Positions 22,511 to 64,000 of a DNA stretch of 64,000 nt are shown one piece after another. The position numbers and the translations under genes were made by a program. Position 1 is the stretch's first letter. Each line of letters begins with the position of its first letter. The notes beneath the pieces are model-generated. The model saw only the letters and a program-made list of their open reading frames with translations, was not told the DNA's origin and did not search any database. The stretch comes from Prorocentrum cordatum (taxonomy: Eukaryota > Sar > Dinophyceae > Prorocentrales > Prorocentraceae). The stretch lies in NCBI GenBank assembly GCA_963575745.1, contig CAUYUJ010001403.1, positions 356,501 through 420,500 of the forward strand, written 5' to 3'.

Positions 22511-24620
22511 ACGCTTCGCGTTTTCGGGCGGCTGCGCGTCGGCCAGCCTGCGCCGGCGCAGCGCGCGCCTCAACGCTACAACCGGCATCCCTGTGTCGCT
22601 CAGGTTCCCTCAGCTCGCGCAGAGCGGCATGGGGCAATGCAATTGGGTCGCGCTGCGCGTCGGCCAGCCTGCGCCAGCGCAGCGCGCACCTCGACGCTGC
22701 AACAAGCAACCCTGTGTCGCTCAGGCGCCGTCCTCTCGCGCAGAGTGGGCGGAGCAATGCGTTTGGGTCGCGTTGCGCGTCGGCCAGCCTGCGCCGGCGC
22801 AGCGCGCACCTCAACGCCACAACAAGCAACCTTGTGCCGCTCAGGCGCCGACCGTTCGCGCAGAGCGGCCCTGAGCAATGTAGTTGGTCGCGCTGCGCGT
22901 CGGCCAGCCTGCGCTGGCGCAGTGCGCGCCCCAGAGCTGCAACAAGCAATCCTGCGTCGCTCAGGCGCCGTGCGCCCACGCAGAGCGGCACGGGGCAATG
23001 CATTTAGTCGCGCTGCGCGCCCGCCAGCCTGCGCCGCGCAGTGCACACTTCAACGCCACAACCAGCAACCCTGTGTCGCTCAGGTGCCGTCCGCTCGCGC
23101 AGGGTGGCGCGAATGCGTTTTGGGTCGCGCTGCGCGTCGGCCTACCTGCGCTGGCGCAGTGCGCACGCCAGAGCCGCAACAAGCAGCCCTGTGTCGCTCA
23201 AGTGCCGTCCGCTCGCGCAGAGTGGGAGCGAGCAATGCAGTTGGTCGCGCTGCGCGTCAGCCAACCGGCGCAGTGCCCACCTCAACGCTGCCATCAAGCA
23301 GCCCTGTGTCGCTCAGGTGCCGTCCGCTGGCACAGAGTGGCATGGGGCCATGCTTGCAGGTCGCGATGCGACCTGGCCAGTCTGCGCCAGCGCAGTACGC
23401 ATCTCAACGCTACAACAAGCAATCCTGCGACGCTCAGGTGCCCTCAGCTCGCGCCGAGCGGCGCAGCGCAATGCATTTGGGTCGCGCTGCGCGTCGGCCA
23501 GCCTGCGCCGGCGCAGCGCGCACCTCGACGCTGCAACAAGCAACCCTGTGTCGCTCAGGCGCCGTCCTCTCGCGCAGAGTGGGCGGAGCAATGCGTTTGG
23601 GTCTCGTTGCGCGTCGGCCAGCCTGCGCCGGCACAGCGCGCACCTCGACGCCACAACAAGCAACCCTGTGTCGCTCAGGTGCCGTCCGCTCGCGCAGAGT
23701 GGCGCGGAACATTGCATTCGCGTCGCGCTGCGTGTCGGCCAGTCTACGCCGGCGCAGCGCGCGCCCCATCGCCACAACAAGCAACCTTGTGTCGCTCAGG
23801 CGCCGTCCGCTCGCGCAGAGTGGACGATGCTCGCGTTCACGTCGCGTTGCGCGCCCGCCAGCCTGCGCCGGCGCTGCGCGCACCTCAACGCTACAACAAG
23901 CAACCCTGTGTCTCTCAGGCGCCGTCCGCTCGCGCAAAGCAGACGGAGCAATGCGTTCTGGTCGCGCTGCGCGTCGGCCAGCCTTCGCCAGCGCAGCGCG
24001 CATTGCAGCGCGTGCACAAGCAACCCTGTCTCGCCCAGGTGCCGCCCGCTCGCGCAGAGCGGCGCAGAGCAATGCAGTTGGTCACGCTGCGCGCCGGCCA
24101 ACCCGCGACGGCGCGGCGCATCTCAACCCTGCAATCAAGCAACCCTGCGTCGCTCAGGTGCCGCCCACTCGCACATAATGGCACGGAGAAGCGCATTATG
24201 GTTGCGCTGCGCGCGGGCCAGCCTGCGCCAGCACCGCGCGCGCCACTAAACAACCAGCTCAGGAGCTGTCCGCTCGCGCATAGTGGCACGGAGCAATTCG
24301 TCTGGGTCGCGCCAGCCCCCAGCCAGCACGCGATCAAAGGCAATCTCACAACGCCCTGGCGCCATCCGCTCGCTGTTTGTGCGAGGCGCGATCGGCCAGC
24401 CTGCGCCAGCGCAGTGCGCCAGCGCAACGTGCACACAGCAACCCTGTGACGCTCAGGTCTTGTCAGCTCGCGCAGCGCCGCCGCCCACTCGTGGAGAGTG
24501 GCAAAACCCAGCCCCGTGCGATCGCCCAGCCTGCGCACGCACCTCAGCACTACGATAAGCAACCATGTGACTTTCACGCACTGTCTGCTCGCGCAGAGCA
24601 GCACGGATCATACGTTTTAG
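22510..24620 (+). repeat. 120-base satellite, about 17 units
   Basis: The unit contains GCGTCGGCCAGCCTGCGCC, GCGCAGCGCGCACCTC, ACAAGCAACCCTGTGTCGCT and GTCCGCTCGCGCAGAG. Spacing is 120 bases at 22657, 22777, 22897 and 23017. Because 120 is a multiple of three, three plus-strand and several minus-strand frames stay open for up to 568 codons. They conflict with each other and repeat every 40 residues, so I treat them as satellite frames. Confidence 0.93.
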
Positions 24621-25104: not shown

Positions 25105-25793
25105 GTGAGGACTTTTGACGGGGGGCGTGGGCGCAGCCCTCACGCGAGCTCGTCGCCCTCGTCTGGCTGTAAGCTTGCGCCCATGCACGCCCGTCTGGCC
25201 CACTTGCAGGATGAGGTGCGTCAGGCGAATGCCTCCCTGTCTTGGTGGTGCGGCACGCGGGGCCTCGCGCTTCGGTTGGACAGGCTGTCTGGCCTTGGTG
25301 CCACGTCGGATTTCTTGGACAAGCGGGCAAAGGGACAGCCTCTAGACGCTCAGCCTAGGGCGCCGACGCACGTCCCGAATCACGTCTCGCTCGCTGCCAA
25401 CGATTCCTGGGCGGAGGCCGAGTGGAACAGGCTGGAGCGTCTGGGCACAGTGCACGCGTTTCCTCGGGGCCAGCTGCGCCCACCGCAGTTGAACATCGAT
25501 CCTTGCGCTTTGCTTTTGAAACCAAGAGAGGGCGTCGACGATTCTGCGCCCGAACAGGAACGATGGAAGGCAAGATTCATTTTAGATCTCCGGAGAGGTC
25601 GTGTGAATGAACGGCTTCCCGAGGTCGGTGTCGCCTATGGAACATTGGACATGGCTGTGCCGCGCATCCGGCACGGCAGGTTCATGTTCGTCATCGACCT
25701 CCAAGGTTGTTTTTTTCAACTGGAGGGTCGATCCAGCCGACGCCGACCTCCTGGGTTTCTATTGTCCAACACGCCAACAATTTGGTCTGGAAC
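25105..25793 (+). pseudogene. Truncated reverse transcriptase, unit 1
   Basis: The frame holds KARFILDLRRGRVNERLP (residues about 155-172) and MFVIDLQGCFFQLE, reverse transcriptase block A with Asp198. ATG at 25183 (MHARLAHLQDEVRQ) is a likelier original start or inner Met than the first codon. After a T7 run at 25710-25716 the expected sequence NWRVDPADADLLGFYCP continues in another frame, so a one-base slip has broken it. At about 25793 coding similarity ends and the minisatellite begins, so blocks B to E, with the YxDD active site, are missing. The layout RFILDLR...DLxxCF.xWxVDP...LGF resembles DIRS/Ngaro-class reverse transcriptases; the family assignment is tentative. Confidence 0.75.
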
Positions 25794-26227
25794 CATCTGG
25801 AGGCCAGCTGAGGCCGTCTTGGGTGTATCTTGGGCACCCTTGGAGGCATCATGGGGCCATCTGAGCCGTCTTGGAGGCCACTTTGGCCGTCTTGGAAGCA
25901 TCTTGGAGGCCATCTTGGGTCATCTTGGAGCCATCTGGGGCAGGATTACCCTCGACAACCACCTCTGGAAGATCCTGGGCAGTCCTTTCGGTTGGCCGGC
26001 GGGACGCGCCGAAGCCCCAGGGAGAGTTCTTTTGGAAAAATACCAAAACCAAAATCGAGAGGATTCAGCACGCCAGGCACCCCTGCGATGAATCGACGGT
26101 GTGCGGCGGATCCAGCTGTCTTCGGCAAGTTCCGTCACCGTGCCAGCCCGGCAGTCTGGGTGGGGTCCGTTGGAGGGGGATCAGGAGGCCGTCACGTGTG
26201 ACACTTCGGGTCTCCAGGCTTGGGAAA

Positions 26228-26402
26228 GCTGTGATGAGGATGCGTATGATTATGTGGATGATGGGGATGATGACGGTGACCGGTGGTGATCCTGATGACC
26301 ATGGTGGTGGTGATGATGATGGTGATGATGATGACGACGATGATGATGTTGATAATGATGTTGATGATGCTGGTGATGATGATGGTGGTGATGATGATGA
26401 AT
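26228..26402 (+). repeat. GAT/GGT microsatellite
   Basis: GATGATGGTGATGATGATGA-type run. Equivalent runs are at 27829-28004 and 29340-29478 in the other units. Confidence 0.9.
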
Positions 26403-26705
26403 CCTGGTCGCTGATTCCACTGTGGGGATGCCGCCCTGGCCCCACGCCCGCCCGCAACGGGACAGGGCGCTCTGTCCGGATCCCTCCGGTCAGTCCCTGC
26501 AACCGACCGGCGCCCTGCTGGAAAAGGGCATTCCTCTCTACCGTCCATGCTGGGCCCCGTTTCTTGGGTAACTCAGAATTGAATTCTGGTGTGGCTCGTG
26601 AAATCTGGGCTCCGCCACCTAAAAATCTGAAGCCAGTATGGACGGATTTCTGCGACTTTCGAAAATCGTTCCCCTGCATCTGCGGAGAATGGATATCTGG
26701 TCCAA

Positions 26706-27394
26706 GTGAGGACTTTTGACGGGGGGCGTGGGCGCAGCCCTCACGCGAGCTCGTCGCCCTCGTCTGGCTGGAAGCTTGCGCCCATGCACGCCCGTCTGGC
26801 CCACTTGCAGGATGAGGTGCGTCAGGCGAATGCCTCCCTGTCTTGGTGGTGCGGCACGCGGGGCCTCGCGCTTCGGTTGGACAGGCTGTCTGGCCTTGGA
26901 GCCACGTCGGATTTCTTGGACAAGCGGGCAAAGGGACAGCCTCTAGACGCTCAGCCTAGGGCGCCGACGCACGTCCCGAATCACGTCTCGCTCGCTGCCA
27001 ACGATTACTGGGCGGAGGCCGAGTGGAACAGGCTGGAGCGTCTGGGCAAAGTGCACGCGTTTCCTCGGGGCCAGCCGCGCCCACCGCAGTTGAACATCGA
27101 TCCTTGCGCTTTGCTTTTGAAGCCAAGAGAGGGCGTCGACGATTCTGCGCCCGAACAGGAACGATGGAAGGCAAGATTCATTTTAGATCTCCGGAGAGGT
27201 CGTGTGAATGAACGGCTTCCCGAGGTCGGTGTCGCCTATGGAACATTGGACATGGCTGTGCCGCGCATCCGGCACGGCAGGTTCATGTTCGTCATCGACC
27301 TCCAAGGTTGTTTTTTTCAACTGGAGGGTCGATCCAGCCGACGCCGACCTCCTGGGTTTCTATTGTCCAACACGCCAACAATTTGGTCTGGAAC
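26706..27394 (+). pseudogene. Truncated reverse transcriptase, unit 2
   Basis: Same frame as unit 1 with a few substitutions (for example Trp-Lys for Cys-Lys near residue 22, NDYWAEAE for NDSWAEAE, GKVHAF for GTVHAF). It carries the same T7 frameshift and the same join to the minisatellite. The shared lesions show that the fragment was already dead when the unit was duplicated. Confidence 0.75.
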
Positions 27395-28306
27395 CATCTG
27401 GAGGCCAGCTGAGGCCGTCTTGGGTGCATCTTGGGCCGCCTTGGAGGCATCATGGGGCCATCTGAGCCGTCTTGGAGGCCACTTTGGCCGTCTTGGAAGC
27501 ATCTTGGAGGCCATCTTGGGTCATCTTGGAGCCATCTGGGGCAGGATTACCCTCGACAACCACCTCTGGAAGATCCTGGGCAGTCCTTTCGGGTGGCCGG
27601 CGGGACGCGCCGAAGCCCCAGGGAGAGTTCTTTTGGAAAAATACCAAAACCAAAATCGAGAGGATTCAGCACGCCAGGCACCCCTGCGATGAATCGACGG
27701 TGTGCGGCGGATCCAGCTGTCTTCGGCAAGTTCCGTCACCGTGCCAGCCCGGCAGTCTGGGTGGGGTCCGTTGGAGGGGGATCAGGAGGCCGTCACGTGT
27801 GACACTTCGGGTCTCCAGGCTTGGGAAAGCTGTGATGAGGATGCGTATGATTATGTGGATGATGGGGATGATGACGGTGACCGGTGGTGATCCTGATGAC
27901 CATGGTGGTGGTGATGATGATGGTGATGATGATGACGACGATGATGATGTTGATAATGATGTTGATGATGCTGGTGATGATGATGGTGGTGATGATGATG
28001 AATCCTGGTCGCTGATTCCACTGTGGGGATGCCGCCCTGGCCCCACGCCCGCCCGCAACGGGACAGGGCGCTCTGTCCGGATCCCTCCGGTCAGTCCCTG
28101 CAACCGACCGGCGCCCTGCTGGAAAAGGGCATTCCTCTCTACCGTCCATGCTGGGCCCCGTTTCTTGGGTAACTCAGAATTGAATTCTGGTGTGGCTCGT
28201 GAAATCTGGGCTCCGCCACCTAAAAATCTGAAGCCACTATGGATGGATTTCTGCGACTTTCGAAAATCGTTCCCCTGCATCTGCGGAGAATGGATATCTG
28301 GTCCAA

Positions 28307-28995
28307 GTGAGGACTTTTGACGGGGGGCGTGGGCGCAGCCCTCACGCGAGCTCGTCGCCCTCGTCTGGCTGGAAGCTTGCGCCCATGCACGCCCGTCTGG
28401 CCCACTTGCAGGATGAGGTGCGTCAGGCGAATGCCTCCCTGTCTTGGTGGTGCGGCACGCGGGGCCTCGCGCTTCGGTTAGACAGGCTGTCTGGCCTTGG
28501 AGCCACGTCGGATTTCTTGGACAAGCGGGCAAAGGGACAGCCTCTAGACGCTCAGCCTAGGGCGCCGACGCACGTCCCGAATCACGTCTCGCTCGCTGCC
28601 AACGATTCCTGGGCGGAGGCCGAGTGGAACAGGCTGGAGCGTCTGGGCAAAGTGCACGCGTTTCCTCGGGGCCAGCCGCGCCCACCGCAGTTGAACATCG
28701 ATCCTTGCGCTTTGCTTTTGAAGCCAAGAGAGGGCGTCGACGATTCTGCGCCCGAACAGGAACGATGGAAGGCAAGATTCATTTTAGATCTCCGGAGAGG
28801 TCGTGTGAATGAACGGCTTCCCGAGGTCGGTGTCGCCTATGGAACATTGGACATGGCTGTGCCGCGCATCCGGCACGGCAGGTTCATGTTCGTCATCGAC
28901 CTCCAAGGTTGTTTTTTTCAACTGGAGGGTCGATCCAGCCGACGCCGACCTCCTGGGTTTCTATTGTCCAACACGCCAACAATTTGGTCTGGAAC
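28307..28995 (+). pseudogene. Truncated reverse transcriptase, unit 3
   Basis: Near-identical to unit 2 (NDSWAEAE as in unit 1, GKVHAF as in unit 2). It has the same frameshift and truncation. Confidence 0.75.
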
Positions 28996-29498
28996 CATCT
29001 GGAGGCCAGCTGAGGCCGTCTTGGGTGCATCTTGGGCCGCCTTGGAGGCATCATGGGGCCATCTGAGCCGTCTTGGAGGCCACTTTGGCCGTCTTGGAAG
29101 CATCTTGGAGGCCATCTTGGGTCATCTTGGAGCCATCTGGGGCAGGATTACCCTCGACAACCACCTCTGGAAGATCCTGGGCAGTCCTTTCGGGTGGCCG
29201 GCGGGACGCGCCGAAGCCCCAGGGAGAGTTCTTTTGGAAAAATACCAAAACCAAAATCGAGAGGATTCAGCACGCCAGGCACCCCTGCGATGAATCGACG
29301 GTGGGCGGCGGATCCAGCTGTCTTCGGCAAGTTCCGTCACTGGTGGTGATCCTGATGACCATGGTGGTGGTGATGATGATTGTGATAGTGGTGATGATGA
29401 TGACGACGATGATGATGATGTTGATAACGATGTTGATGATGATGGTGATGATGATGGTGGTGTGATGATGATGATTCCTGGTCGCTGATTCCACTGTG

Positions 29499-52572: not shown

Positions 52573-53180
52573 TTGTCCGCGGCCGTTTGTTCTCAAGCGA
52601 CCGGCCGCCAACATATGATTGCGCCTCATCGCGAGGCACGCTACTTGCCAGCGAAACCGAAAACAAATTCGCTTGACAGGCCCGTCGCTCCCGCGACGAT
52701 CTCCTACTTTTTGGACTATCGCTATTACGGTGCGACAGAGTTGGAGATGGGTTTCGACATAGGCGAAGCTTCTGGTTGGGCCTCCCAACTACCTCCAAGC
52801 TTGATAGCGGAGCTGGTTTACGGTGGTCAGCTCTAGCTGTACTCCTCACCATCCACTGCAAAATCTGGGGGACTACTGGTATGGTGGAACATCAGGGTGC
52901 AGTGGGTCTGCTCGGAGGAGTGTACATACTTACGCACAACCGCAAGGACACTTGCAGCGCGACCTCCGTTTTCGCGGAGGCTTCTTACATGAGCCCCACC
53001 TCATTGCGATATTACAATCCTGAAGTCCACCCTCCTACTCCAAGTGGATACGACTTTGAAGACGCAATGCATGGCGACATGCGATACGTCATTGTGCCTC
53101 GTCCACCTCCACGCAGGTTCACTACAACACATGACAACCCCCAGCCACGAACGTCCGACCACGACCTAAGTGGCCACTAG
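52573..53180 (+). pseudogene. Gag N-terminal region (broken)
   Basis: One frame (to 52836) ends with YRYYGATELEMGFDIGEASG and SLIAELVYGGQL. A second (to 53180) carries ASYMSPTSLRYYNPEVHPPT, PSGYDFEDAMHGDMRYV and a Pro/Thr-rich tail ending DHDLSGH. Tyr/Pro-rich text of this kind precedes the gag core in the dinoflagellate Copia polyproteins I know. At least one frameshift lies between the two parts. Confidence 0.6.
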
Positions 53181-53217: not shown

Positions 53218-53953
53218 TTGGGGCATATGCAGCGTGGCGGAAACGACAAACGTACAACCGGCCCCCAGTGGGACCCTGCCGGTAATGTACCTTTTTTTCA
53301 CGAGTTCGTTCGCGACGTACACGCCTGGATTAACGTGACCATAGGCAGTATGAACCCTTCCAAACGGGCCGCACCACTACAGCGTGGTCTGGGAGGGCTC
53401 GCAAGGATCATAGCCATGAGAGTACCTTCTGGAATTATCAACTTTGGCGTCAACATCGGTGGTCGCCACACTGACGGCGCCACCTACATTATGTTCCCTC
53501 TCAGCACTAATTCGAACATCTAGAGGAGGAGCGCCAACTAAATTCAGGAACGGCTTTCATCGACTTTCGCGTCCATGCGAAGAGCGGATCGACCAGACGT
53601 TAGCATGCTTTGAGATAGCCCGCTTAGAGGCCGAGAAAGCGTGCTTCAAGATCCCCAATTTTCAGGTCCTAACAGTCATCATGTTCAGGGCTTTGGGAGT
53701 GGGTACGTCGCGTGCACAACAACTACTACAACCATGCAGCCACCAAATGCCAAGGGCCCAGCAACAATTTCACCCTCGACTAGAACGCATGAGGTCTTAT
53801 GCTCTCATTGTCGAGCGAACCCCTGGCCACATGGGTGTACATTTACCCGCGGTCATCGCGCCGAAACTTTTCACACTGATACCAATGCAGGGCAACTCGC
53901 TACCAACGTATGAAACGATGATCCACAACCAACAGAAGCCACCACCTCATTAG
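53218..53953 (+). pseudogene. Gag core (broken)
   Basis: The first frame (to 53523) has FHEFVRDVHAWINVTIGSMN and LQRGLGGLARIIAMRVPSGI. This is the F..W..D..AW...T......A......L.G.AR pattern of retrotransposon gag. A frameshift near 53520 leads into ERIDQTLACFEIARLEAEKA, FRALGVGTSRAQQLLQP and RSYALIVERTPGHMG (to 53953), which fits the second half of the same domain. Gag would have formed the particle that packages element RNA. Confidence 0.7.
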
Positions 53954-53989
53954 CTCAGCATGGTGGCCAGCCTACGGGGTCGCAAAACT

Positions 53990-54573
53990 CCTGGACTCGA
54001 TTTCACGGACCGCCGGCCACTACCCTTGTAGGCCCAGCGGGGCAAACCGCCGAGTCTGAATTTGATTTTGGTACAGACACCGACGCCTCATCATGTGACG
54101 GAACTGGTACCCTAGATTTTTCCGACATGCTTTCGCATCTCACAGAAGAGCAACAGGCGCAGATGAGATTTCTGGATACCAGAAACACACGCCTCTGGAG
54201 ACGCTTTATGAAGAAATCAGTTCGTAAGATACGACGTACTATCCGACGGGCTGCCAGAGCAAAGGGAAAGGGTAGCGGCAAGGGCACCGGCAAACGACGG
54301 CGACGACATGGCAGAGGTATGTTGGCATTCCTGGCATCCTTTACTGGACCACAATGCGAAGACATGTTCCTGGGGGCGGGTCGAAGCCGTCATTCCAACA
54401 AAGAATCTTGCGCACATGAATTTGAAAACCGGAAACGCAGCAACAGAAAACGCAGGCGCACCTCAGGGAAGGGCAAGGGGCGCCGGGGCAACCCGAAAGA
54501 TGCCGCGCCATCGCTGGGCGGCGCATCCAGGGGGCCCTCCTCGCAGCGAGATGAGGGTGAGAAGGCGCTGTAG
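53990..54573 (+). pseudogene. Gag basic C-terminal tail
   Basis: DFGTDTDASSCDGTGTLDFS, then LWRRFMKKSVRKIRRTIRRA and ARAKGKGSGKGTGKRRRRHG, ending KGKGRRGNPKD. The acidic-then-basic Lys/Gly/Arg tail is typical of the RNA-binding end of these gag proteins. A CCHC zinc knuckle normally follows RR.NP.D; instead the frame changes to Ala/Pro/Gly-rich text and stops at 54573. An open segment at 54583-54771 (EITRCQCRDIREKKK) may be a ruined knuckle. Confidence 0.65.
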
Positions 54574-55060
54574 ACTGCGTCAATGGCACCGGGGGCTGCC
54601 CCAGAGATTACCAGATGTCAGTGCCGCGACATCCGCGAAAAGAAGAAGGCATCTGAGAGTGCAAGGTCATCTGCAGCGCCCGCCGCGGCTGCGATCCTTG
54701 CAAGGGCGCCCGCTGAACCAGCCGTTGCGCCTGCTGGGCAACCTGCCACTGCCCTTGAACTGGAGAAGTAAGCGGGCGATTCTGGGAGACCTTGGAGGTC
54801 AACCCAGCCTACAGGCCCCATGCCCCTGACGGCTCTGACCGTTGCGGGGCGGTGCACGGCAAAGTAGAGCGCGCCGCCACGCGCGCTGATAACGATGCTC
54901 TTGGCCGTCAGCGCGCCCGCAATATTTTGCGGAAAGAACTTGCCCATGGTTTCGCATCCGAGGAGGAACACTTAGTGCAGATACTGCATGGCGCGCACAT
55001 CGCACGAGGCCCCCGAGCGAATGCGACGAGCGTCGCTGCTCGGAGCGGCTCACCACAGCC
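54574..55060 (+). other. Unassigned part of the element between gag and the KptA-like module
   Basis: Short frames only. Contains a palindrome copy (54733-54746) and ALGRQRARNILRKELAHGFA in one frame (54895-54955). No domain recognised. Confidence 0.4.
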
Positions 55061-56723
55061 ACGCGGCACAAGCAACTTCGCCACGACAAGCTCTCCGAAC
55101 GGTTTATCAGCTGCGGCACCTCGTACGACGAGTTTGACGGTTGGGCGGGCCTCGGACCTCGGAGACCTGCTGGAAATTTGACCAGAAAGACGCGAGCTCT
55201 GGCACATTAATCACCTGGGCGTCATCCAGAAATGCCTCCGAGGCCAGCACTGGGCACATCAAGCAGTGGCTGCGCTCAACCTCTGCGGAATGATCGACCG
55301 CAACTCCGGCGCGCAGGAGGACGGACATCAGGTGAAGATGCTCAAGTTCTGCCGGAAACCCCGCCCGACTTACTTCTTGCGCCCCAGGAGCGGACGCAGC
55401 AATTCAGGCATCAGACGCCCGGAAGGTCTGCACTCACGGGTAACGGACCTGAGCAAACCGGGAGCGCCATGCTACTTCATCCACGGTGCGCAATGGGCAA
55501 GCGCCCCGAACATGCTACACGATGGTCTGTCGTGCCGCAGCGAGGACAATGCCAATTGGAGAGGCAGGCAGATGATTCGCGGATGCCTATGCTTACCTGG
55601 AGATGGGCGGATTCAAACAAGCCTGCGGATGGAGCCCGAAGTTCTGATCATGGTGAGCCTCGAGAATCTACTTCGCGACAACATCCCGGTTTGGCGGTCT
55701 GCCGACGACGTCGTCGTGGCGTCGGGTATCCGTGGCAGGATTCCGCCAAGCCAGATGTTTAAAGTTATTTCCATTAAGATTAACCGTGTCCAGTGCAAAT
55801 GCGATCGAGTTGGACACGCGTGGGTCAACGAATGGTATCTTGAAGACAACCAGCGGGGCAACCTGCGTGCTTCCACTTCTGCGCCAAAGAAGTACTATGA
55901 ATATCCATGCGATGCGCCTACATTGAAAGGGCGGATTGCGCCTGGGACTCCCTGCTACCTCAAGGTTCCAGTCTCGACACCTGCATCTGAGGTAGAACGC
56001 GCATCTGTATTCACGATGCAAGAGGCGCGTCAAGCGGGGGCTCCTGCGGGAGGCTCGGATGGGTCATGGATCCAACCTGATAGCGGAGTCGCGCTGAACG
56101 ACGGACAGTATGCGAGCGATCCGAGGCGCAATAAGGCACAGCAAATGCCGGCACCTGCGGGGCCACCAGCCGCAATCGCTCCCACGCGCAGGGCCGCGAC
56201 CCCATTCGGCACTCCGCGGAGCGCTGGCAGCACCGACAGTCTGCAGGCCCGACTCCACAGCATCCGGATGGATCCTCAGCTCGACCAAGCCATGCAAGCG
56301 ACATCGCCATTCGCATCTCCACGTGCTGTTGCGGGGCAACCTGCGCGTGCAGACCAGGGGCCCGCCCAAAGGGCCGAGATCCTCTTGGGCAGCAGCGGTG
56401 GATGCACAGGCAGATGCTCGAGGCGATGGAAAACATGGGGCGGGGCGGCATTGGCCTCCCGAGCGCCGACTGGACTCGCCCCTGGGAATTCTTTCCCAGT
56501 CGCGAATCCATCACCTGATCAGTCTAACAGGTATGGATACATACCAGCATTCTTCAGTCACCCGACGTACGAGCCGACAGCTGCTGAAAGGCCTGCTGCA
56601 CCACCTATGGCTGCACCTGCGTTTCCTGAGTATTACGCTCAGGAGACGGGCATTCCTCGGGTCGGCATTCTACCCGGGAACACGTACGTTCGGGCAACGG
56701 CCGGTGACTTCTATCGGTCCTAG
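55060..56723 (+). pseudogene. KptA/Tpt1-like RNA 2'-phosphotransferase module with C-terminal extension (broken)
   Basis: Tpt1/KptA enzymes remove a 2'-phosphate from RNA with NAD+. The N-terminal wing is visible at 55070-55181 in two frames: KQLRHDKLSERF, DEFDGW, then LGDLLEI, compare LRH...DGW...LL of the family. The main frame (55266-56723, 485 codons) has RSNSGIRRPEGLHSRV (family IRA.QGHS region), YFIHGAQWASAPNMLHDGL (family HGT...I...GL; His73), GDGRIQTSLRMEPEVLIMV and VWRSADDVVVASG followed by GRIPP (family F.RS.NGV......G.VPP; Arg144). After residue 172 comes an extension of about 310 residues, Ala/Pro-rich in the middle, which I do not recognise. HGA instead of HGT and RRPEGLH instead of RA.QGH suggest an inactive or decayed enzyme. 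It sits between gag and protease, where I know of no such domain in standard Copia elements. Confidence 0.65.
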
Positions 56724-56905
56724 TTAACGCGGGGAGCCGAATGCGAATCGGGCATCCCAGGCCAGGCGCCCCGTTGCGGTCCTTGGCAGCTCCCATGGAC
56801 CAGAAGGTCAATCATCACGGGCCAGAGCTGGTGGCACCCACTTCTATGTGAGAGCTGCATAACGAGATTTGCGCCATCCACGAGGCGCAGCAGGCCAACC
56901 TCTCA

Positions 56906-58327
56906 ATGCGACTGGCTCGCCAACGACGCAATCAGCAGCGACAGCTACGCCGCGCGATGAATCGCGCGGGGGCGCCCGATGCTCCTACAGCTGCGGGGCA
57001 GCCCGCCACGGGCCTATCAGCAGCGGTTGCGATGGGATCAATGCCTGCGGGGGCACGCGCGCGTGGAGCGACAGCTGGAGGGTGCACAAGTGAGGCACCT
57101 TGTGCCATTTGCAGAGGCGTGGGCCCCATCACAGCTGAGCTTCATCATGCCATTGCTGGGGGGCAAAATGCAGCGGATCGACATGGAGACATATTCAGCG
57201 GGGCAAATGAACTCAGATACTTCCGCGAAGAGCTGATCCGCATCGCGGCGATGATGGCAGGCGCTGCAGCTGCTGCAGAGCCACCAGCTGCATCTGCGGG
57301 GCAATCTGCTGCATCCTCCTGTGCGCGACAGGATCCAACAGCCACGATGCCAGCCCCTGAAGTGCAAATGCTTCTGGTAGCCGAATCAGCAGCTATTGCA
57401 GGGGCACCTGCCGCAGCGACGCCAGCGGGGTTGCCTGCCAATCAGGCATGGCTGAGGCGTATAGAGAGATCCACCGAAGCAAGCACGCATTGGCTTCGCA
57501 CGCCGCATGGCAGCGCGCGGGGCAACCCGCCAGGCGCGCGCAGAACCGAGAGCCCAGCAAGCGCGCGTGGCGGTGCCAGTGCCATATCTGAACGTGACAT
57601 GCTACGCGCGGTGCTGATGGCCATTGCAGATGGGCAGACAACCGTGCGTCCTGACGAGGACATCTTTGGGAACGTGCCGCTTACTCCACAGCGTCCTCGC
57701 ATGTATGACGAGTGCCCGTCTCCATGGACCCCCCAGAAACATCCGATCACAGGCGACGAAACCAGGGAGTGCATGTACGCCATTGCATCTGCGAGAGGGA
57801 TCAGCGGGCGTTGGATCAAAGGCGCCGTAAAGGGCATGCACGGCACAACCCTGTCCGCTGTCCCAGGCATATCCGGCGAACGACATGACATAGCCCTGGC
57901 AGCGAACAGTGGAAGCATGGCGGATGAAATGCTGACTATGTTCTTTGACATTGGCAGCAACATCAACATCATTGGTTTGAAAAATGCACAGACATTCAAG
58001 CGAGCTTCACGCTCCCATGGTCATGACATCAAGAAGCTGGATCTGACAAAGCGGCTGTATGTGTCTGGAGTGGGGCATGGAGCCGCCGCTTGCGAGAAGC
58101 CGTCGCGCTGCAAGATTGCGTGCAAGGAAAGGGGTGACACCGCGGGGGCACCCGCTATTGTCAGGTTAGACACTTACCCAGCCAATGTGGCAGAGGGATC
58201 TGGCGAGAATATCTTTGCAATTCTGGGTTTCAGGAACATGTCAAACATGCGCGCTATCTTGATCCTTGAACAGGGGCGAGAATCTGATCATCCCAGGCGC
58301 AGACATGCACAGGCTCCTCCATGGTAA
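56906..58327 (+). pseudogene. Copia aspartic protease region
   Basis: A 473-codon open frame. The first about 310 residues are Ala/Gly-rich and contain seven or eight copies of the AGxPA-type insert. The protease signature is FFDIGSNINIIGL with the catalytic Asp at residue 348 (codon at 57947), the D-[TI]-G-[SA] motif of retropepsins. It is followed by LYVSGVGHGAAAC and NIFAILGFRNMS, matching the flap and second half. Near 58275 the frame shifts; ENLIIPGADMHRLL and LIKTPSGHLAMTVDEYG continue in 58266-58904. The protease would have cut the polyprotein. Confidence 0.7.
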
Positions 58328-58904
58328 AGGCGCCGGGGTGATGGACTTGATAAAGACGCCATCAGGGCACTTGGCGATGACGGTCGACGAGTATGGGTTC
58401 GCAACAGAGGCACATGGCTCGACGGCGTCTACAGCCACAGCCAACCCTCGGCGCGAGGAGACGCCCGCACACATCAAGGAGGTCGCAGATGTGGAGCCGA
58501 TGGCGAGGCAAGCTGCATTCAGCAATGCGGGGGCACCCGCCACTAACGATGCCAACACTTATATGATGTCGCATGACATAATGGGGCATTGCTTATCCAT
58601 CAACGAGGAGGCGTTTTGTTACACGGCGCAGTGTATTGCGAACAACACCCTCAAGACCTGGCATCGCAGGAATACGACGTATGGGAACAGCCCCACGTCT
58701 GCCGATGAGGACCTCGCCTTGCGGAAGTTGCAGGCGAAGGTCTACTGGGCGATCTACGAGGAGGGCAGCAAGTGGGCGCCGCCCGACGATGCCGCGGGGC
58801 AACCTGCTGCAGAGAGCGACACTGCTGAGAAGTGCGACATCTTTACTTCGAGCATTGGTTCAGGGGCCCGCGACACGGGCGTCGGGGCGCCCCCCATCGT
58901 GTGA
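58266..58904 (+). pseudogene. Continuation of the protease region after a frameshift
   Basis: Begins in the overlap with the previous frame. LIIPGAD and KTPSGHL are conserved end-of-protease landmarks in dinoflagellate Copia polyproteins. Further on, NDANTYMMSHDIMGHCLSIN and EEGSKWAPPDDAAGQPA carry two more palindrome copies. Function past residue about 40 is not known to me. Confidence 0.55.
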
Positions 58905-60135
58905 AAATGAGCGACGGGGGCGGCCGCGCGCCACGGCCACTCGTGCTTTCCCAGACAGGCCAAACACAGAGGTGCTGTCTTCAGGCGCGGGGGCACCTGC
59001 ACACTTTCCCCAGGCGCCGGCTGTGCGCGCCAGGGGCAGCGGCGGACCCGGCTGCGCGGCTGCCGCAGAAAAATAACGCTCGTCTCATCATCATTATTCT
59101 CGTGCCCATGTTTTTGAAGATACGCGATCAGCTTGAACTCCGAGCTCGAGGATACATGTGTGTTCGTATTACACGCGCAGAGATTACGACCTCTACTGGT
59201 ACACCGTATTTGTGTGGTCCACTATCAGAACATTACCAACTACTGTGGGTGGCAACGCCCGCTGGATGGCATGTACGACTGCCTGGAAAGAGGGCGGGAC
59301 CATATTCTCAATGTATCCAAAGTCTTATGATCAAAGGTCGAGCTCTACGTATGTCGATGGTACTTGTGGGGCCTTCAGGATACTTCTGGAAGCCAGGTCC
59401 TATACGAGATACGATTGCAGATTTAGACTTGCAGGTCATGCGCATGCGATGTTGCCACTTCGGTCGGAAGTTCGACCGTTCAAGTCGTTTACCGAGCGGT
59501 GCATGCATGCAGGTAGCGACCGCCTGCGCGCGCATTCCAACCAGCCTGTTGAAATGCACGGTGCAAAGGGGCACGGACTTACGTACAGTTTCCTAGGGGT
59601 GGCCTTCAATTGGACCATGTGGCACACCGGGGGACGATGAATCTTGATGACAATATTATCATACAAGACATTCAGGTTCGAGATCAACCCATCGGGTATA
59701 ATTGCAACGCGCCGTTACCAAACGGTGCGACGAATATTAGTACTCGATTGTACTGGGAGCCTCCGGCGCCAGTCCTGGTCAGAAACGAGGGACAGCGACC
59801 GCGCCCAAGGCGGGTTACGACCGTCGATGACGATCGTCTTCCTCCCCACTCGACTGAGCGTGGCCACGCTACCACCTAGTCCTGAATTTCCGACCCCGGA
59901 ATCTCCGACACTTACTCCACCCGAGCAACAGACATCACTGCCAACGGATGCCCGGGTCACGCAAAAGATGCAGAAAGCTAACAATGAAGCTGGCATCGAA
60001 CCGCGCAAGATACCCAAAGTAGTCGAAGACGGCGACGACGACTGCAACGAGGGCCTCGGGCGTGGTGCCTACTACACCGACGTTTCCTTAGACGCCGACA
60101 GTGACGACGATGAGGAAACCTCCATCACCTTACCA
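58905..60135 (+). other. Unassigned coding-like region of the element
   Basis: Protein-like text alternates between frames: YYTRRDYDLYWYTVFVWSTI and CTTAWKEGGTIFSMYPKSYD (59158-59640), NLDDNIIIQDIQVRDQPIGY (59640-59700), then an acidic stretch VVEDGDDDCNEGLGRGAYY and SLDADSDDDEETSITLPAG (60020-60145). No domain recognised. At least three frame changes are present. Confidence 0.45.
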
Positions 60136-60149
60136 GCGGGGTTACCTGC

Positions 60150-60575
60150 GGTTTCACATGCCGATGTGTGTTCCATAATCCCAACCTTGTGTTACGGACG
60201 ACATAACAAGGTAGACATGCTGGCATCGTGTGGAGGTAATGGGGGAAGATCGCAGTTAGCCTGCAGCCGAGGTTGGTCCTCAGGTGGACCTTGTAAACAA
60301 GGAAGTCCAGGACGCAGTTATGCACTACTCTGACGCATGTTTCGTCTACGTTGTTATATTACAATCGAACTGCAGAACAACTGGATTGCCGCCCTACTTC
60401 ACTTTCAAATTCAAGCACGACACGTGGCATGAACACCACAAGAAATATTTCCCACACATCAAGTTATGTGGAAAGGCTGCCGTCTGTCAAAATGACCTCC
60501 GCCGGTTTCACTCACGAGAACAACCGGCGGGTACTTGGGCGGACGAAATACCGCCATGGACTACGTTGGCCTAGC
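60150..60575 (+). pseudogene. Methyltransferase-like module of the element (broken)
   Basis: CYGRHNKVDMLASCGGNGGR looks like the VDLLELCGG..GR SAM-binding start of a Rossmann methyltransferase. After a frameshift near 60285 come MHYSDACFVYVVILQSNCRT, TG and then DTWHEHHKKYFPHIKLCGKA, with FHSREQPAGTWADEIPPW at the end. The VVILQ.NCRTTG block sits where C5-cytosine methyltransferases carry their PC loop, here with NC in place of PC. I have seen this module in dinoflagellate Copia polyproteins. Activity is unproven and this copy is broken. Confidence 0.55.
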
Positions 60576-60915
60576 GCGAGGGCACTTGCAAACTAACATG
60601 GACCAATGTACTACGGGTCTTCGCGACCCCCAATAGGGTATTAATACGCAAACCTACTGAGGCATTGGCCAACCGCCGTCTCTTGCTGACGCTCTTCGAG
60701 AGGAAACGGTGCAAGGGCCATCATCATCACGCCTCGGTTTGCAACATGGAACTGGCCAGGGTGGCACAACGTGCTCCGACTATGCAGTCCCTCTTCGCCG
60801 AAGTTGTTCAAATTACACATGACATGTTCCTAGTGAATCGGGATCTCAACTATCCGTCGGCACCCCGACGGATCGATCCTGAGACCATCCTCAAGAGGAT
60901 GGGGATGTCCAGCAT
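60576..60915 (+). other. Linker between the methyltransferase-like and zinc modules
   Basis: EALANRRLLLTLFERKRCKG and QSLFAEVVQITHDMFLVNRD (60665-60922) lie in one open frame. No domain recognised. Confidence 0.4.
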
Positions 60916-60929
60916 GTGCTGACAACGTC

Positions 60930-61105
60930 AACACGCATTCCCCTTCACACGATAGGAGCCCTAAACACTGCAGGTGGTACGATAAGGAGGATTACCATTG
61001 GGAATGTCCAAACTGACAGAAGAACTACGGTCAGGCTAGACATGATCACTTACATACGCCTGGCAGATGTAAATTTGCCAAACCTTGGAAGCTGCCTGAC
61101 AACCG
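60930..61105 (+). pseudogene. Zinc-binding module with a Cys-to-stop change
   Basis: In one frame: SPKHCRWYDKEDYHWECPN, stop (TGA at 61012), QKNYGQARHDHLHTPGRC and KFAKP. The spacing C...WECPx[C]...H.H.H....C is that of a zinc module. The TGA replaces the second Cys codon of CPxC (TGC or TGT to TGA). Located just upstream of integrase, as expected. Confidence 0.55.
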
Positions 61106-61436
61106 CGGACAGGAGCCTCCAGCCCCCGCCGAACCGGCAGCACCACCACCTGTGGCGGCAGCAGCATCCGAGGCACCAGCCGCCCAGCACATTGCGCGGC
61201 TACGACCTCCGAGGCCTGGCTCCTAAGCTGGACCAACAGCAGGCACCAGCAGCCACGACATCACAGTAGGCAGACATGCCGCTGAACCGGCTGCAGGGCA
61301 ACCTGCCTCGAGCGGAGCCGGCAGCCTGGACGATCGCAGACGGCAACCACGCATAGTAGCCAGACGAAGTCGACAGCAAGGAGGGGGCCCACCTCCACCA
61401 CCCACCTGCGGGTGACCCTGCTGCTCGTCCAAGACT

Positions 61437-62022
61437 TCCAGACTGGTCACGGTTCGATGTGCAGATTCACTTACAGAACCTACGCAGCCTTGATATAAGC
61501 GTGGTAACGCGGGAGTTGCGAAATCTGCACTTACGGCGGTTCCACGCCAAAGAGCCAAGGATGAGACGCATTTTAACCAAGGCTGGTCTGGACAACTTCA
61601 GGCTGAACCTGATAAAGGGCGTCTGTGATACACGTCGGCGGCGCAGGGCTTGGGACCTGCCAGGGCACGCCGTTATGCCGTCTACTGCACGACCTGGCAA
61701 GACCAACGAAGAAGTCGAATGTGATCTAATGTTCTACAAGCAGGATCACAATCTATGTCCTAGAATTGATCGTTGCATTCGACATGGTGCTGTAATCGAG
61801 ATACCAAATACAATTATGACCAGCATCTTAGATGTGTATCATCAGTGCTGGGCGCAATTCCGACCTGCCAAAGTACTCTGCTCCGACGGAGAGGGTGCAC
61901 TTGACAACGGCACCACAAAGGCAGTCTTCAAGGCAAAAGACCTTGAGCTGAGGATACCTGCGCGTGGTCAACACGCTACGACAAGTGAAGCCAGAAACGG
62001 AATACTACGGCATGGGAGCTGA
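61437..62022 (+). pseudogene. Integrase (Copia DDE)
   Basis: DWSRFDVQIHLQNLRSLDIS leads into the zinc-binding HH part LRNLHLRRFHAKEPRMRRIL. The following CxxC has become CDTRRRR, so the second Cys is lost. The catalytic core shows Asp in VECDLMFYKQDHN, Asp in VLCSDGEGALDNG and Glu in GQHATTSEARNGILRHGS, giving the D-D-E triad. The frame stops at 62022 just after the third acidic residue; text continues in other frames. It would have inserted element DNA into chromosomes. Confidence 0.78.
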
Positions 62023-62420
62023 TCTCAACAGGTTAGAAATACCTCCTGTGTTCACATGTCTATTGCGTGAAGCCTTAATTTGCCGCCAGCGCGTTGACCT
62101 TTTTTTACAATGTGGCTTCTCCATGCAACGCGCTGTTTGGACGGTAGCCAGCGATGCTACCCGACTTGCGTGTCTTGCACCGTGAACGGCAGACGCAAAC
62201 ATGCGACCACTCTCGAGAACAGACTACCTGCCGGGTAAGCATTGAGGCTATCACTCAAGCCACTGCAGTAGCCAAAACCAATCGTGCACTACGGACCAAG
62301 ACTACTATCACGGGTCAGCAGTACTATGACGACGGAAACGTGGCTGACTACCAGCGCCCCACTACTACAATGGACGACGGGGGGGGGATGGAATGGCCCC
62401 CTCCCGGTCGTGCGAAATGA
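61964..62420 (+). pseudogene. Integrase C-terminal continuation (broken)
   Basis: EYYGMGADLNRLEIPPVFTC and LLREALICRQRVD (to 62185) continue the integrase after a frameshift. ISIEAITQATAVAKTNRALR with TKTTITGQQYYD (62235-62330) follows in another frame. Confidence 0.55.
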
Positions 62421-62836
62421 CCCCGACAGGGGTCGAGTCATCATCGGAGTGGGGAACCGCGATGTACAAGTCCAATACGGCGACGCACGACTTTCACTGT
62501 ACATCGAAGCATTGATCGCTCGAGAAACTGGCTCAGACAACGCTGCCCTAAGGACTGCGTTGACATTCGCAACCAGTCTTCCTGCGGGGCGACCTGCAAT
62601 GACATTTGATTATATCCCAACCAAAGAGAGAATGCTCCAGATGACGAGTGCGAGCCGACTATCTCCTAAGGTACTTCTTTCGCATCGAGAATTCAGTCTC
62701 CGTCAGGTTAGCTGACAGCAGTCACAAGCTACTTCCAGTGGCTTATGCTGGCACTTTTGCACTGGTGCACTATGACAACGACGTGGTTCCAGGCTTCAAC
62801 TATGACGAAGCTGAAGAAATTGTCTCAAACATTTAA
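62284..62836 (+). pseudogene. Integrase tail with W-GP-VV box and linker
   Basis: GGWNGPLPVVRNDPDRGRVI and VGNRDVQVQYGDARLSLYIE match the SH3-like GPxxVV tail found after the integrase core. LTFATSLPAGRPAMTFDYIP holds a palindrome copy. After a shift near 62690, FFRIENSVSVRLADSSHKLL runs to the stop at 62836. Confidence 0.6.
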
Positions 62837-62845
62837 TATATATTA

Positions 62846-63533
62846 ATGGGCCAGCACCTTCGAGGATCATCCAATGCCTGAAGTCAACGAAACCTCAGGC
62901 GGGCTTCGACCAAGACATGGCAAAGTTTGAAGAACTGGCTGATGCACCGACACAAGGCAACGACGCCAGAGAAGCCCCAGTAGCCGAAGCACCACAGGAG
63001 ACGGACTGCTTCCTATCACCCGTGAGGAATCAGAAGCGGACTTTGAGGGGCATATCATGGATGCGTTGCGCACAGATCTGCAGGAGGAAACAGGGCTACT
63101 GGAGGCAACACCACTAGTCGACCTCGACACTATACCCACACAGATGATCACCGACAGTAGTGCGTTGGTCAAAGTAGCTGAAGAACAGCGGGGGCACCTG
63201 CCTACGTGGGGCAATCCACATGGCATCGACACAACGGAGACAGATCACGTCCCACTGTGCTCCACGGACGAAGACGACACTTGCGGGTTGGGCGTTGACG
63301 ATCATGGGCACTATATAGAACTCTTCCTCACTGCAGACGCATCAAAGGTAGCCCCACTCGAACAACATCACACTATATTTGAATTCGGCCGCGTAACCAC
63401 TATGCGAGTATATGTGACCGCTGCAGCTAAACGAGCTGCAGTCGTCAATGAGGACGACCTCCCCGCGAAGGCCGACATCCAGGCGAACCCAGTCGAGGTA
63501 TCTAGAGCCCCCTGCTCTGAACTCAATAGATGA
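62846..63533 (+). pseudogene. Acidic linker before reverse transcriptase
   Basis: RIIQCLK-type text and an acidic stretch, then one frame (63057-63533) with DHVPLCSTDEDDTCGLGVDD, HGHYIELFLTADASKVAPLE and RVYVTAAAKRAAVVNEDDLP. This is the region that directly precedes the reverse transcriptase in this Copia family. A palindrome copy at 63189-63202 is read here as RGHLP, a different phase from the usual AGxPA. Confidence 0.6.
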
Positions 63534-63559
63534 CAACCAGTGATTTAAAATGTAAGATA

Positions 63560-64000
63560 CACCAAAGGCGTCAAACATCATGACTTCGTGATATGCATAT
63601 AAGTGGGACATTCGTCAAGAACGAAGTGGGCGAGATGGAGCGGACCATTGGACTACGCCTGGCAATTCAGGGTTACATGGACCTCGGAGCCTTCGACGCG
63701 GAGGCTTTCTCATCGACGGCGCGGCGGTCGAGTCAGAGACTGCTCGCGAGCACGGCTGCGTGCCAGAAGCAATGGATCATCGCTTCGCTTGACATCAACG
63801 TGGTTTTCCTGAGGGGATTTACCCATCAGGAACTTGTTGAAGCAAACGGTGAAAATAAACGCGTGGCGCGCTTTACGCTGCCGCTTGGATCAGCATCTGC
63901 GCTTAGCTTCCTCCCAGGATTTAAGCACCACGATGAGTCGAAGCACTGCTTGCAGTGCCTCAAACCAGGCATCGGCACCAAGGACGCATCGAGAGCCTTC
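63560..64000 (+). pseudogene. Reverse transcriptase, N-terminal part, runs off the window
   Basis: ASNIMTS, a TGA stop, then YAYKW (63565-63605) are followed by a frame change into FVKNEVGEMERTIGLRLAIQ at 63611, open to the last base. Landmarks: SSTARRSSQRLLASTAACQK, WIIASLDINVVFLRGF (Copia block A, with Asp in SLDIN), RFTLPLGSASALSFLPGF, HCLQCLKPGIGTKDASRAF. The K.L.G.KDA.RAF end is the Copia YGLKQAPR block. The YxDD block lies beyond the window. The stop and shift upstream mark the copy as dead, although the last 130 codons are open. Confidence 0.82.

Follow-up and report, generated by a model that had tools for sequence, protein, structure and literature searches.

The stretch of DNA analysed here, the window, comprises 64,000 nucleotides (nt) of a Prorocentrum cordatum contig (CAUYUJ010001403.1, positions 356,501 to 420,500), and its final part is, as judged from its sequence, a decayed copy of a member of a group of long terminal repeat (LTR) retrotransposons of about 16 kb with a Copia-type (RVT_2) reverse transcriptase, through which palindromes of 14 nt are scattered. 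Homology to the gag of a related family, called B below, begins at 52743, so the element starts before the interval that a first-pass annotation had given for the palindromes, and it runs off the window end. Its features, all on the forward strand, include a gag-like fragment (53914..54570) whose Arg-rich segment, LWRRFMKKSVRKIRR, is also conserved in families B and C; an open frame with a KptA/Tpt1-like domain (55182..56720; PF01885, E 7.8e-5, 23.2 bits, short of the curated cut-off of 26); an open frame of 491 amino acids (56852..58324); and the start of an RVT_2 reverse transcriptase (63584..64000; E 7.3e-5, below the curated cut-off), truncated by the window end. This composition supports the retroelement with RVT_2, KptA-like, and gag-like pieces that had been proposed. 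Relatives exceed the window copy by about 210 nt at 57050, within the 491-residue frame, and by about 190 nt at 59560; since the extra segment at 57050, read by eye, encodes a RING finger, the window copy seems to have lost this part. It is also frame-broken, and some palindrome sites (e.g., 58987 and 61293) can be read in more than one open frame.

The window contains 18 copies of the strict form of the palindrome, GCRGGNNNNCCYGC, where 1.09 are expected (the maximum of 100 shuffles was 4), and 16 of these copies fall within 55853-63201, all with the GCGGG or GCAGG arm first on the forward strand. The clustering described in the first-pass annotation (about 20 copies in 9 kb and none in the other 52 kb) was confirmed in part: the strict copies there number 16, and the absence elsewhere is slightly inexact, as strict copies were also found at 24213 and 41142. 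Allowing one mismatch adds more copies in the same stretch, among them the one at 54037 with which the interval had been opened, a variant and not a strict match. Most strict copies (13/16, by open frames) encode AGxPA, and the middle stem pair takes the forms G-T, A-T, and G-C, both as noted before. The remaining three are read in another phase, as QRGNLR (55853), ARGNPP (57517), and QRGHLP (63188); the different phase of the last had been recognised, with its start placed at 63189.

Among the sites read as AGxPA, AGAPA is encoded by GCGGG[GGCT]CCTGC (56034..56047, where the last base of the loop is T), GCAGG[GGCA]CCTGC (57398..57411), GCGGG[GGCA]CCCGC (58142..58155, strict in 12/20 copies, and 58527..58540, which folds in its context), and GCGGG[GGCA]CCTGC (58987..59000, in one open frame, a second being open too). 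AGQPA is encoded by GCGGG[GCAA]CCTGC (56331..56344, strict in 13/20 copies, and 58794..58807) and GCGGG[GCAG]CCCGC (56993..57006), AGLPA by GCGGG[GTTG]CCTGC (57425..57438, strict in 17/20 copies) and GCGGG[GTTA]CCTGC (60136..60149), and AGRPA by GCGGG[GCGA]CCTGC (62584..62597, common to locus L037). The three sites in phase 2 are GCGGG[GCAA]CCTGC (55853..55866, strict in 10/20 copies), GCGGG[GCAA]CCCGC (57517..57530), and GCGGG[GGCA]CCTGC (63188..63201). Subfamily A2 (L037, L039) has in common the hairpin GCAGG[GCAA]CCTGC (61293..61306), and GCGGG[TGAC]CCTGC (61408..61421), with a loop outside the GNNA class, has the loops CAAC and TAAC in A2. The feature is wider than had been noted, as matches with five pairs and other stems were found at GCAAG[GACA]CTTGC (52942..52955, five Watson-Crick pairs, a stem unlike the earlier consensus), GCATG[GCGA]CATGC (53069..53082, five Watson-Crick pairs), GCGAG[GGCA]CTTGC (60576..60589, one G-U pair), and GCACG[GCTG]CGTGC (63750..63763, five Watson-Crick pairs in the reverse transcriptase region, possibly by chance). 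A decayed hairpin with four of five pairs (54733..54746) is a strict palindrome in 6 of the 10 copies covering the site.

The genome searched for relatives, GC-rich like the window, comprises 4.13 Gb in 21,875 contigs, and all relatives compared come from it. A DNA search with 55182-58901 gave 92 matches, one being the window itself and the others 70-87% identical. The search returned 29 loci in addition to that of the window, of which 25 were used (four duplicate or rearranged ones were omitted) and merged into 19 other copies of the window's own family, A. Family B, around L035, is represented by an element of 16.4 kb with LTRs of 289 bp (99.0% identical), and family C, around L038, by one of 15.9 kb with LTRs of 253 bp (97.2% identical); protein homology links B with C, and B with A. 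Both elements have long open frames with KptA/Tpt1, RING finger, CCHC-like, and RVT_2 domains, of which RVT_2 is above the cut-off (4.4e-9 in C, 2.5e-11 in B) and zf-CCHC just under the curated one (E 0.0013 in C, 0.0022 in B). PF01885 lies well above the cut-off in both (9.4e-15 in B, L035:2396-9313; 2.1e-19 in C, L038:4504-7170), and the Tpt1 domain of C aligns with solved chains of tRNA 2'-phosphotransferase 1, keeping the stretches RA-QGHS, HGT, and GR-HIH. These retrotransposons encode, besides a RING finger, an RNA 2'-phosphotransferase domain of the KptA/Tpt1 type with its motifs conserved. No integrase family was found upstream of the reverse transcriptase in the B and C frames scanned, two shorter frames being left out. 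An Arg/Trp-rich segment of Gag, RRWRRFxxKPVRxVRRxxRR, is conserved in A, B, and C, and lies upstream of the CCHC-like knuckle in B and C. In L040 and L042 (families B and C), a hairpin GCGAGGAAACTCGC begins about 122-123 nt before the 3' LTR, and the sense strand adjoining this LTR is a polypyrimidine and not a polypurine stretch. Viral contigs scanned for relatives gave eight pattern matches and no confirmed relative.

Comparison of the three families indicates that the palindromes are very probably hairpins of the sense strand, GCNNG[GNNA]CNNGC, with a GNRA-like tetraloop on a stem of 5 bp, kept as structure. In the internal region of the C element, this template has 39 matches, of which 35 pair by Watson-Crick rules and two more with wobble (37 paired); the middle dinucleotides of the stem are nearly free (11 of 16 are used) yet complementary, while the reverse-strand form of the template is absent and loops CNNA, TNNA, GNNC, GNNT, and GNNG occur 0-1 times each. 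The internal region of the B element has 32 matches, 30 Watson-Crick and two wobble, mostly with one stem (25 GG), and one antisense match. The 20 copies of family A give 205 matches (76 Watson-Crick, 91 wobble) and two antisense ones, with 73 further matches to a GNNG loop, 53 of them pairing; in A2 there are 25 matches, 9 Watson-Crick and 13 wobble, and in window 1-52000 a single unpaired match. The 11-14 kb of flank examined contain no template hairpin for either B or C, and looser ends bring in a few hairpins outside the LTRs too. Of the earlier proposal of GNRA loops, GCAA proved to be the commonest loop in family A, and the class as a whole is the wider GNNA/GNNG. Loop preference differs by family (GCAA/GGCA in A, GNCA in B). 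Between the LTRs of B and C, the hairpins extend over the gene regions and into the vicinity of the 3' LTR, in C at one per about 440 nt of internal sequence (mean spacing 444, standard deviation 297).

Pairing was also assessed against shuffled sequence. Hairpins with a GNNA loop and any stem number 27 in C (9 kb) and 28 in B (10 kb), versus means of 1.05 and 0.7 in 20 dinucleotide shuffles; window 53500-64000 has 7 versus 0.95 (18 versus 2.0 with G-U allowed), and window 1-52000 has 6 versus 3.85. In the latter stretch, hairpins of 5 bp with any four-base loop number 134 versus 66.6 in shuffles, without a preference for GNNA. For the unfiltered C matches, 39 in all and 25 of them distinct, the share of paired cells is 97.6% versus 77.2% when shuffled, the covariation score is 0.513 versus 0.098, and none of 500 shuffles reaches the covariation or pairing value; sliding the 3' arm abolishes the signal, and three of the five pairs are invariant because the template fixes them. 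The form GCnGG....CCnGC in C (L038) pairs in 17 of 17 matches (G-C 7, A-T 6, T-A 2, C-G 1, G-T 1), and in family A in 220 of 244 (G-T 100, G-C 87, A-T 33), with A-C in eight. When 52-nt pieces were folded, six of eight gave the drawn hairpin. One base upstream of the 14-mer, the C hairpins are no more alike than background. The base after the 14-mer is C in 33 of the 39 C matches and, among the 37 paired ones, in 21/24 of phase 2, 6/6 of phase 0, 2/4 of phase 1, and 3/3 outside long frames; B lacks this following C, and its hairpin flanks are somewhat more alike. A comparison of L038, L042, L035, and L040 with Rfam gave no match at the gathering score.

Counts over the whole genome, with the reversed pattern as control, agree with this fold. 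The exact pattern of the first-pass annotation is found at 144,794 places versus 78,071, an excess of just 1.85-fold, and the GNNA form, GCGGGGNNACCYGC, reaches 9-fold (45,218 versus 4,899); GCNNGGAAACNNGC is found 38,124 times versus 7,419. By combination at pair 3-12, G-C occurs 30,980 times versus 3,390 (9.1-fold), G-T 14,238 versus 1,509 (9.4-fold), and A-T 13,618 versus 734 (18.6-fold). The non-pairing A-C is the least raised of the four, and G-T stands nearly five-fold above it; therefore, the sense strand is the folding strand. The palindromes are of course present in DNA, where they might act as cruciforms or as protein-binding sites in chromatin, an explanation that is extremely unlikely given that matches to the full template lie almost wholly in one orientation (C 39 to 0, B 32 to 1, A 205 to 2) and that a G-T far commoner than A-C fits a single strand, the sense one. 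In the first 100 listed places of GCNNGGAAACNNGC, 52 are clustered, of which 50 have Watson-Crick stems and one a wobble, versus a mean of 8.6 and at most 19 pairing when arms are shuffled; the 48 isolated ones, some inside known elements, include 10 Watson-Crick and six wobble stems. On contig C1, 27 of 31 GCGGGGNNACCYGC places among the matches listed are inside element B, leaving four isolated in 3.56 Mb, i.e., 1.1 per Mb versus 1.2 for the control. Chance and base composition were rejected as causes by the shuffles and genome controls. The approximately 40,000 matches to one motif form above control correspond to an estimated thousands of element copies or remnants, and the hairpin can serve as a marker for tracing this large retroelement group.

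The reading of most window and B copies as AGxPA could point to a repeat at the protein level, such as linkers or cleavage sites, and this is almost certainly not the explanation. In B, 21 of 22 AGxPA are written GCG GGG NNA CC[C/T] GC, while outside the motifs the four Ala codons are used evenly (24-26% each) and GGG and CCC make up 17% of Gly and 18% of Pro codons; the base directly after the 14-mer, where the final Ala codon has its third position, varies freely (7 T, 4 C, 7 A, 3 G), and the single non-palindromic AGxPA of B uses other codons. Since codon use differs so sharply inside and outside the 14-mer, a plain AGxPA protein motif is excluded. Family C is mostly in another phase with other residues: of its 14 strict copies, 12 lie in phase 2 and encode RGxP (six) or QGxL (six), which are never mixed because the stem pair demands it. 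Its 35 Watson-Crick hairpins are distributed over phase 2 (23), phase 0 (6), phase 1 (3), and sequence outside frames of at least 200 amino acids (3), so that hairpins are present in all three phases and outside long open frames. Phase and loop preference go by family, the window copy and B being mostly AGxPA and C in most cases xGNxP, with GAAA as its loop. An AGxPA protein motif is thus ruled out by the phases used, the codon statistics, and family C; RNA structure overrules protein sequence in three reading phases, and the conservation at the nucleotide level claimed at the outset is supported by phases, codons, and covariation alike.

Hairpin sites recur among family A copies, which differ elsewhere mostly by point changes and sometimes by larger gaps (among the matches listed). 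Window sites at 54400-60600, compared in 19 other family A copies, and those at 61293, 61408, and 62584, compared in A2, are shared, so the compared sites are old; three family A sites are strict in a single copy. For sites that are strict in at least four copies, divergence between copies is 0.07-0.15 at the eight fixed positions of the stem versus about 0.20 in the flanks, in a comparison where choosing sites and rows by likeness to the motif favours low stem divergence. Five C-type loci (L038, L044, L045, L046, and L047), 69-98% identical, hold about 30 hairpins in register, and pairs of them were compared with hairpin status taken from the first-named element. Between L038 and L044 (26 gap-free sites, 130 pairs), 125 pairs are the same, three show two-sided compensatory changes (e.g., GCTCG/CGAGC to GCTGG/CCAGC), one is changed on one side, and one is broken, with an identity of 0.969 in stems versus 0.778 in flanks. 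The corresponding values for L038-L046 (22 sites) are 96 same, three compensatory, three one-sided, and eight broken, with identities of 0.914 versus 0.674, and two of the three compensated sites also changed elsewhere in the stem or loop. L044-L046 (23 sites) gave 106, one, four, and four, and L044-L045 (28 sites) 135, none, one, and four.

A bias of mutation, whereby imperfect palindromes undergo template switching or conversion and so retain complementary arms without selection, would yield two-sided changes of this kind, and conversion of inverted repeats by repair or recombination is discussed for coding palindromes in the accessible part of PMC6649704. It would leave unexplained the constancy of the GNNA loop and of the GC ends, the C that follows 33 of 39 C matches, the sense orientation, and the G-T far above A-C, and a similar excess with any loop and in both orientations is not seen with the template in C; we regard it as very improbable as the overall cause. 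The Nematomorpha mitochondrial coding palindromes described in the same source are similar to the present ones in that secondary structure is kept inside coding sequence, but are long perfect inverted repeats in organellar genes, as far as that text describes them, whereas here a short fold with a fixed loop is repeated.

Several observations weigh against the hairpin interpretation. The non-pairing A-C at pair 3-12 is still raised 3.1-fold genome-wide (2,951 versus 938), which decayed copies may explain in part, and broken pairs make up 8/110 (L038-L046), 4/115 (L044-L046), and 4/140 (L044-L045) in comparisons that take hairpin status from one partner. Repair by template switching could partly account for the compensatory changes. 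The template counts for B and C come from one element each, and the spacing of C hairpins is irregular, without a period. With free ends, each of two B copies has 4 antisense TNNC hairpins, above the 0.65 of the shuffles (at most 2); C, with 0 versus 0.7, shows no such excess. Two of the eight 52-nt pieces, L038:6962-7013 and window:56312-56363 (around the hairpin at 56331), do not fold as drawn, and most pieces are not unusually stable compared with shuffles (z +0.03 to -2.50).

A unit of 14-15 nt inserted into coding text, as suggested in the first-pass annotation, would amount to a selfish micro-palindrome similar to the Rickettsia palindromic elements, which likewise lie in protein-coding genes without abolishing the protein, as described in the portion of PMC6649704 available. 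In family A, 4,105 comparisons of hairpins with copies revealed no gap of 14 or 15 nt at hairpins; the gap lengths were 0, 6, 9, 27, 34, 35, or at least 40, and 153 of the 395 gap cases, having a net length of 0, are uninformative. The five C-type copies also lack such a gap at hairpins, their seven gap cases being of 34-88 nt. As no clean gain or loss of this length was seen, the comparisons give no support to insertion of a mobile palindrome, and the filled and empty sites of the Rickettsia type were not found among the A and C copies compared. The unit here is 14 nt long, has one orientation and many stems, and is clustered in one retroelement group, in contrast to the Rickettsia elements as far as the same source covers them. 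Two B copies (L035 and L036) differ by tandem duplications of 24 and 30 nt, each with a palindrome, and by a further palindrome-bearing segment of 21 nt, and family A site 58142 faces a 5-residue gap in B; these differences, together with family-specific loops and the somewhat raised flank similarity among B hairpins, are what a mobile unit would have in its favour. The many different stems in place of one copied unit, a flank similarity in C that is down to background one base upstream and three bases downstream of the 14-mer, and the isolated places on C1 at the control density (4/31 among the matches listed) make it very unlikely. The possibility that the encoded residues are ancestral at every site, which had been named as a refutation, holds where sites were compared, and refutes the mobile unit only.

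An RNA structure or packaging signal had been among the roles first proposed and is kept here, the packaging part being a proposal from sequence. In the genomic RNA of the element, the hairpins would form a scattered set of sites recognised by an RNA-binding protein. The most likely such protein is the Gag that the element itself encodes, which would act through the Arg/Trp-rich segment upstream of its CCHC-like knuckle and bind many hairpins cooperatively, selecting and condensing the RNA into particles. The recurrence of one loop motif in many stem-loops throughout the genomic RNA, as read from sequence, matches the pattern of packaging signals, and dispersed Gag-binding signals are the best explanation we can offer, to which we would give about an even chance. 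Against it stands the fact that the link between Gag and the hairpins is, at the level of sequence, a juxtaposition of motifs. Another role of the RNA, with a host protein or another protein of the element acting in export, localisation, translation, or escape from silencing, is unlikely; the structural evidence is equally compatible with it and no measurement singles out Gag, but hairpins placed all along the internal RNA are more readily explained by coating or condensation than by one control element, and the element itself encodes a candidate binder. The Tpt1 domain suggests a further role, in which an endonuclease would cut the hairpins and the element's KptA/Tpt1 would complete religation by removing the 2'-phosphate. 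The scores of this domain in B and C, well above the cut-off, and its conserved motifs of tRNA 2'-phosphotransferase 1 in C speak for such cleavage and repair, but no nuclease or RNA ligase family was found among those B and C frames that were scanned, and long open frames pass through the hairpins, making excision unnecessary. We consider it quite unlikely and rate it lower than packaging. A broader proposal, with somewhat less than even chances, is a self-similar RNA folding code, in which 30-40 interchangeable tetraloop hairpins through the genes and the 3' end, kept so strongly that residues of separate codons covary and thereby preserve the stems (RGxP with QGxL), would be read by the element's Gag and perhaps serviced by its Tpt1. 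To our knowledge, no counterpart of such a genome-organising RNA system is known in LTR elements.

The dispersed packaging signals of RNA viruses are degenerate and have been disputed. Those of MS2, picornaviruses, and HBV share a recognition motif in sequences that otherwise vary, according to the part of PMC6281560 consulted. The present hairpins are similar to them in that many stem-loops with a shared motif run through the genomic RNA and a binder of coat or Gag type is expected; they differ from the signals described there (PMC6281560, in part) in their LTR retrotransposon host, in a 5-bp stem, GNNA loop, and GC ends that are nearly invariant and present in 32-37 copies per element, and in being known from sequence. 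A single 14-nt fold that has over 30 copies in each element and covaries cleanly is a natural case for the packaging-signal idea, directly testable here by sequence statistics and simple binding assays. Dispersed packaging signals are the nearest known kind, and if the hairpins are not packaging signals, they belong to no kind known to us. The boxB hairpin of phage lambda, with a 5-bp stem and a GNRA-like pentaloop, occurs in few copies, acts in transcription antitermination, and is read by the Arg-rich peptide of N, which contains Trp. The stem, the GNRA-like loop, and an Arg-rich/Trp peptide as the proposed reader are similar here, an analogy of shape only, whereas the loop is the tetranucleotide GNNA in place of a pentaloop and the copies are many. 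The packaging signal Psi of retroviruses is concentrated near the 5' end, unlike the hairpin sites here, which run from LTR to LTR. Retroviral Gag selects genomic RNA through specific RNA structures (PMC8096270, as far as the accessible text goes), and selection of genomic RNA by Gag via structures is likewise what is proposed here. No such hairpins in retroelements were found in the literature searched, which consisted of titles and the openings of abstracts, with subscription literature mostly outside; in the text available for a report on dinoflagellate retrotransposons with DNA methyltransferases (PMC5890265), neither "hairpin" nor "palindrom" occurs.

Elsewhere in the window, a spliced-leader sequence was sought and not found, and three open reading frames of 328 amino acids, spaced 1,601 bases apart at 25105-29293, suggest a tandem array.

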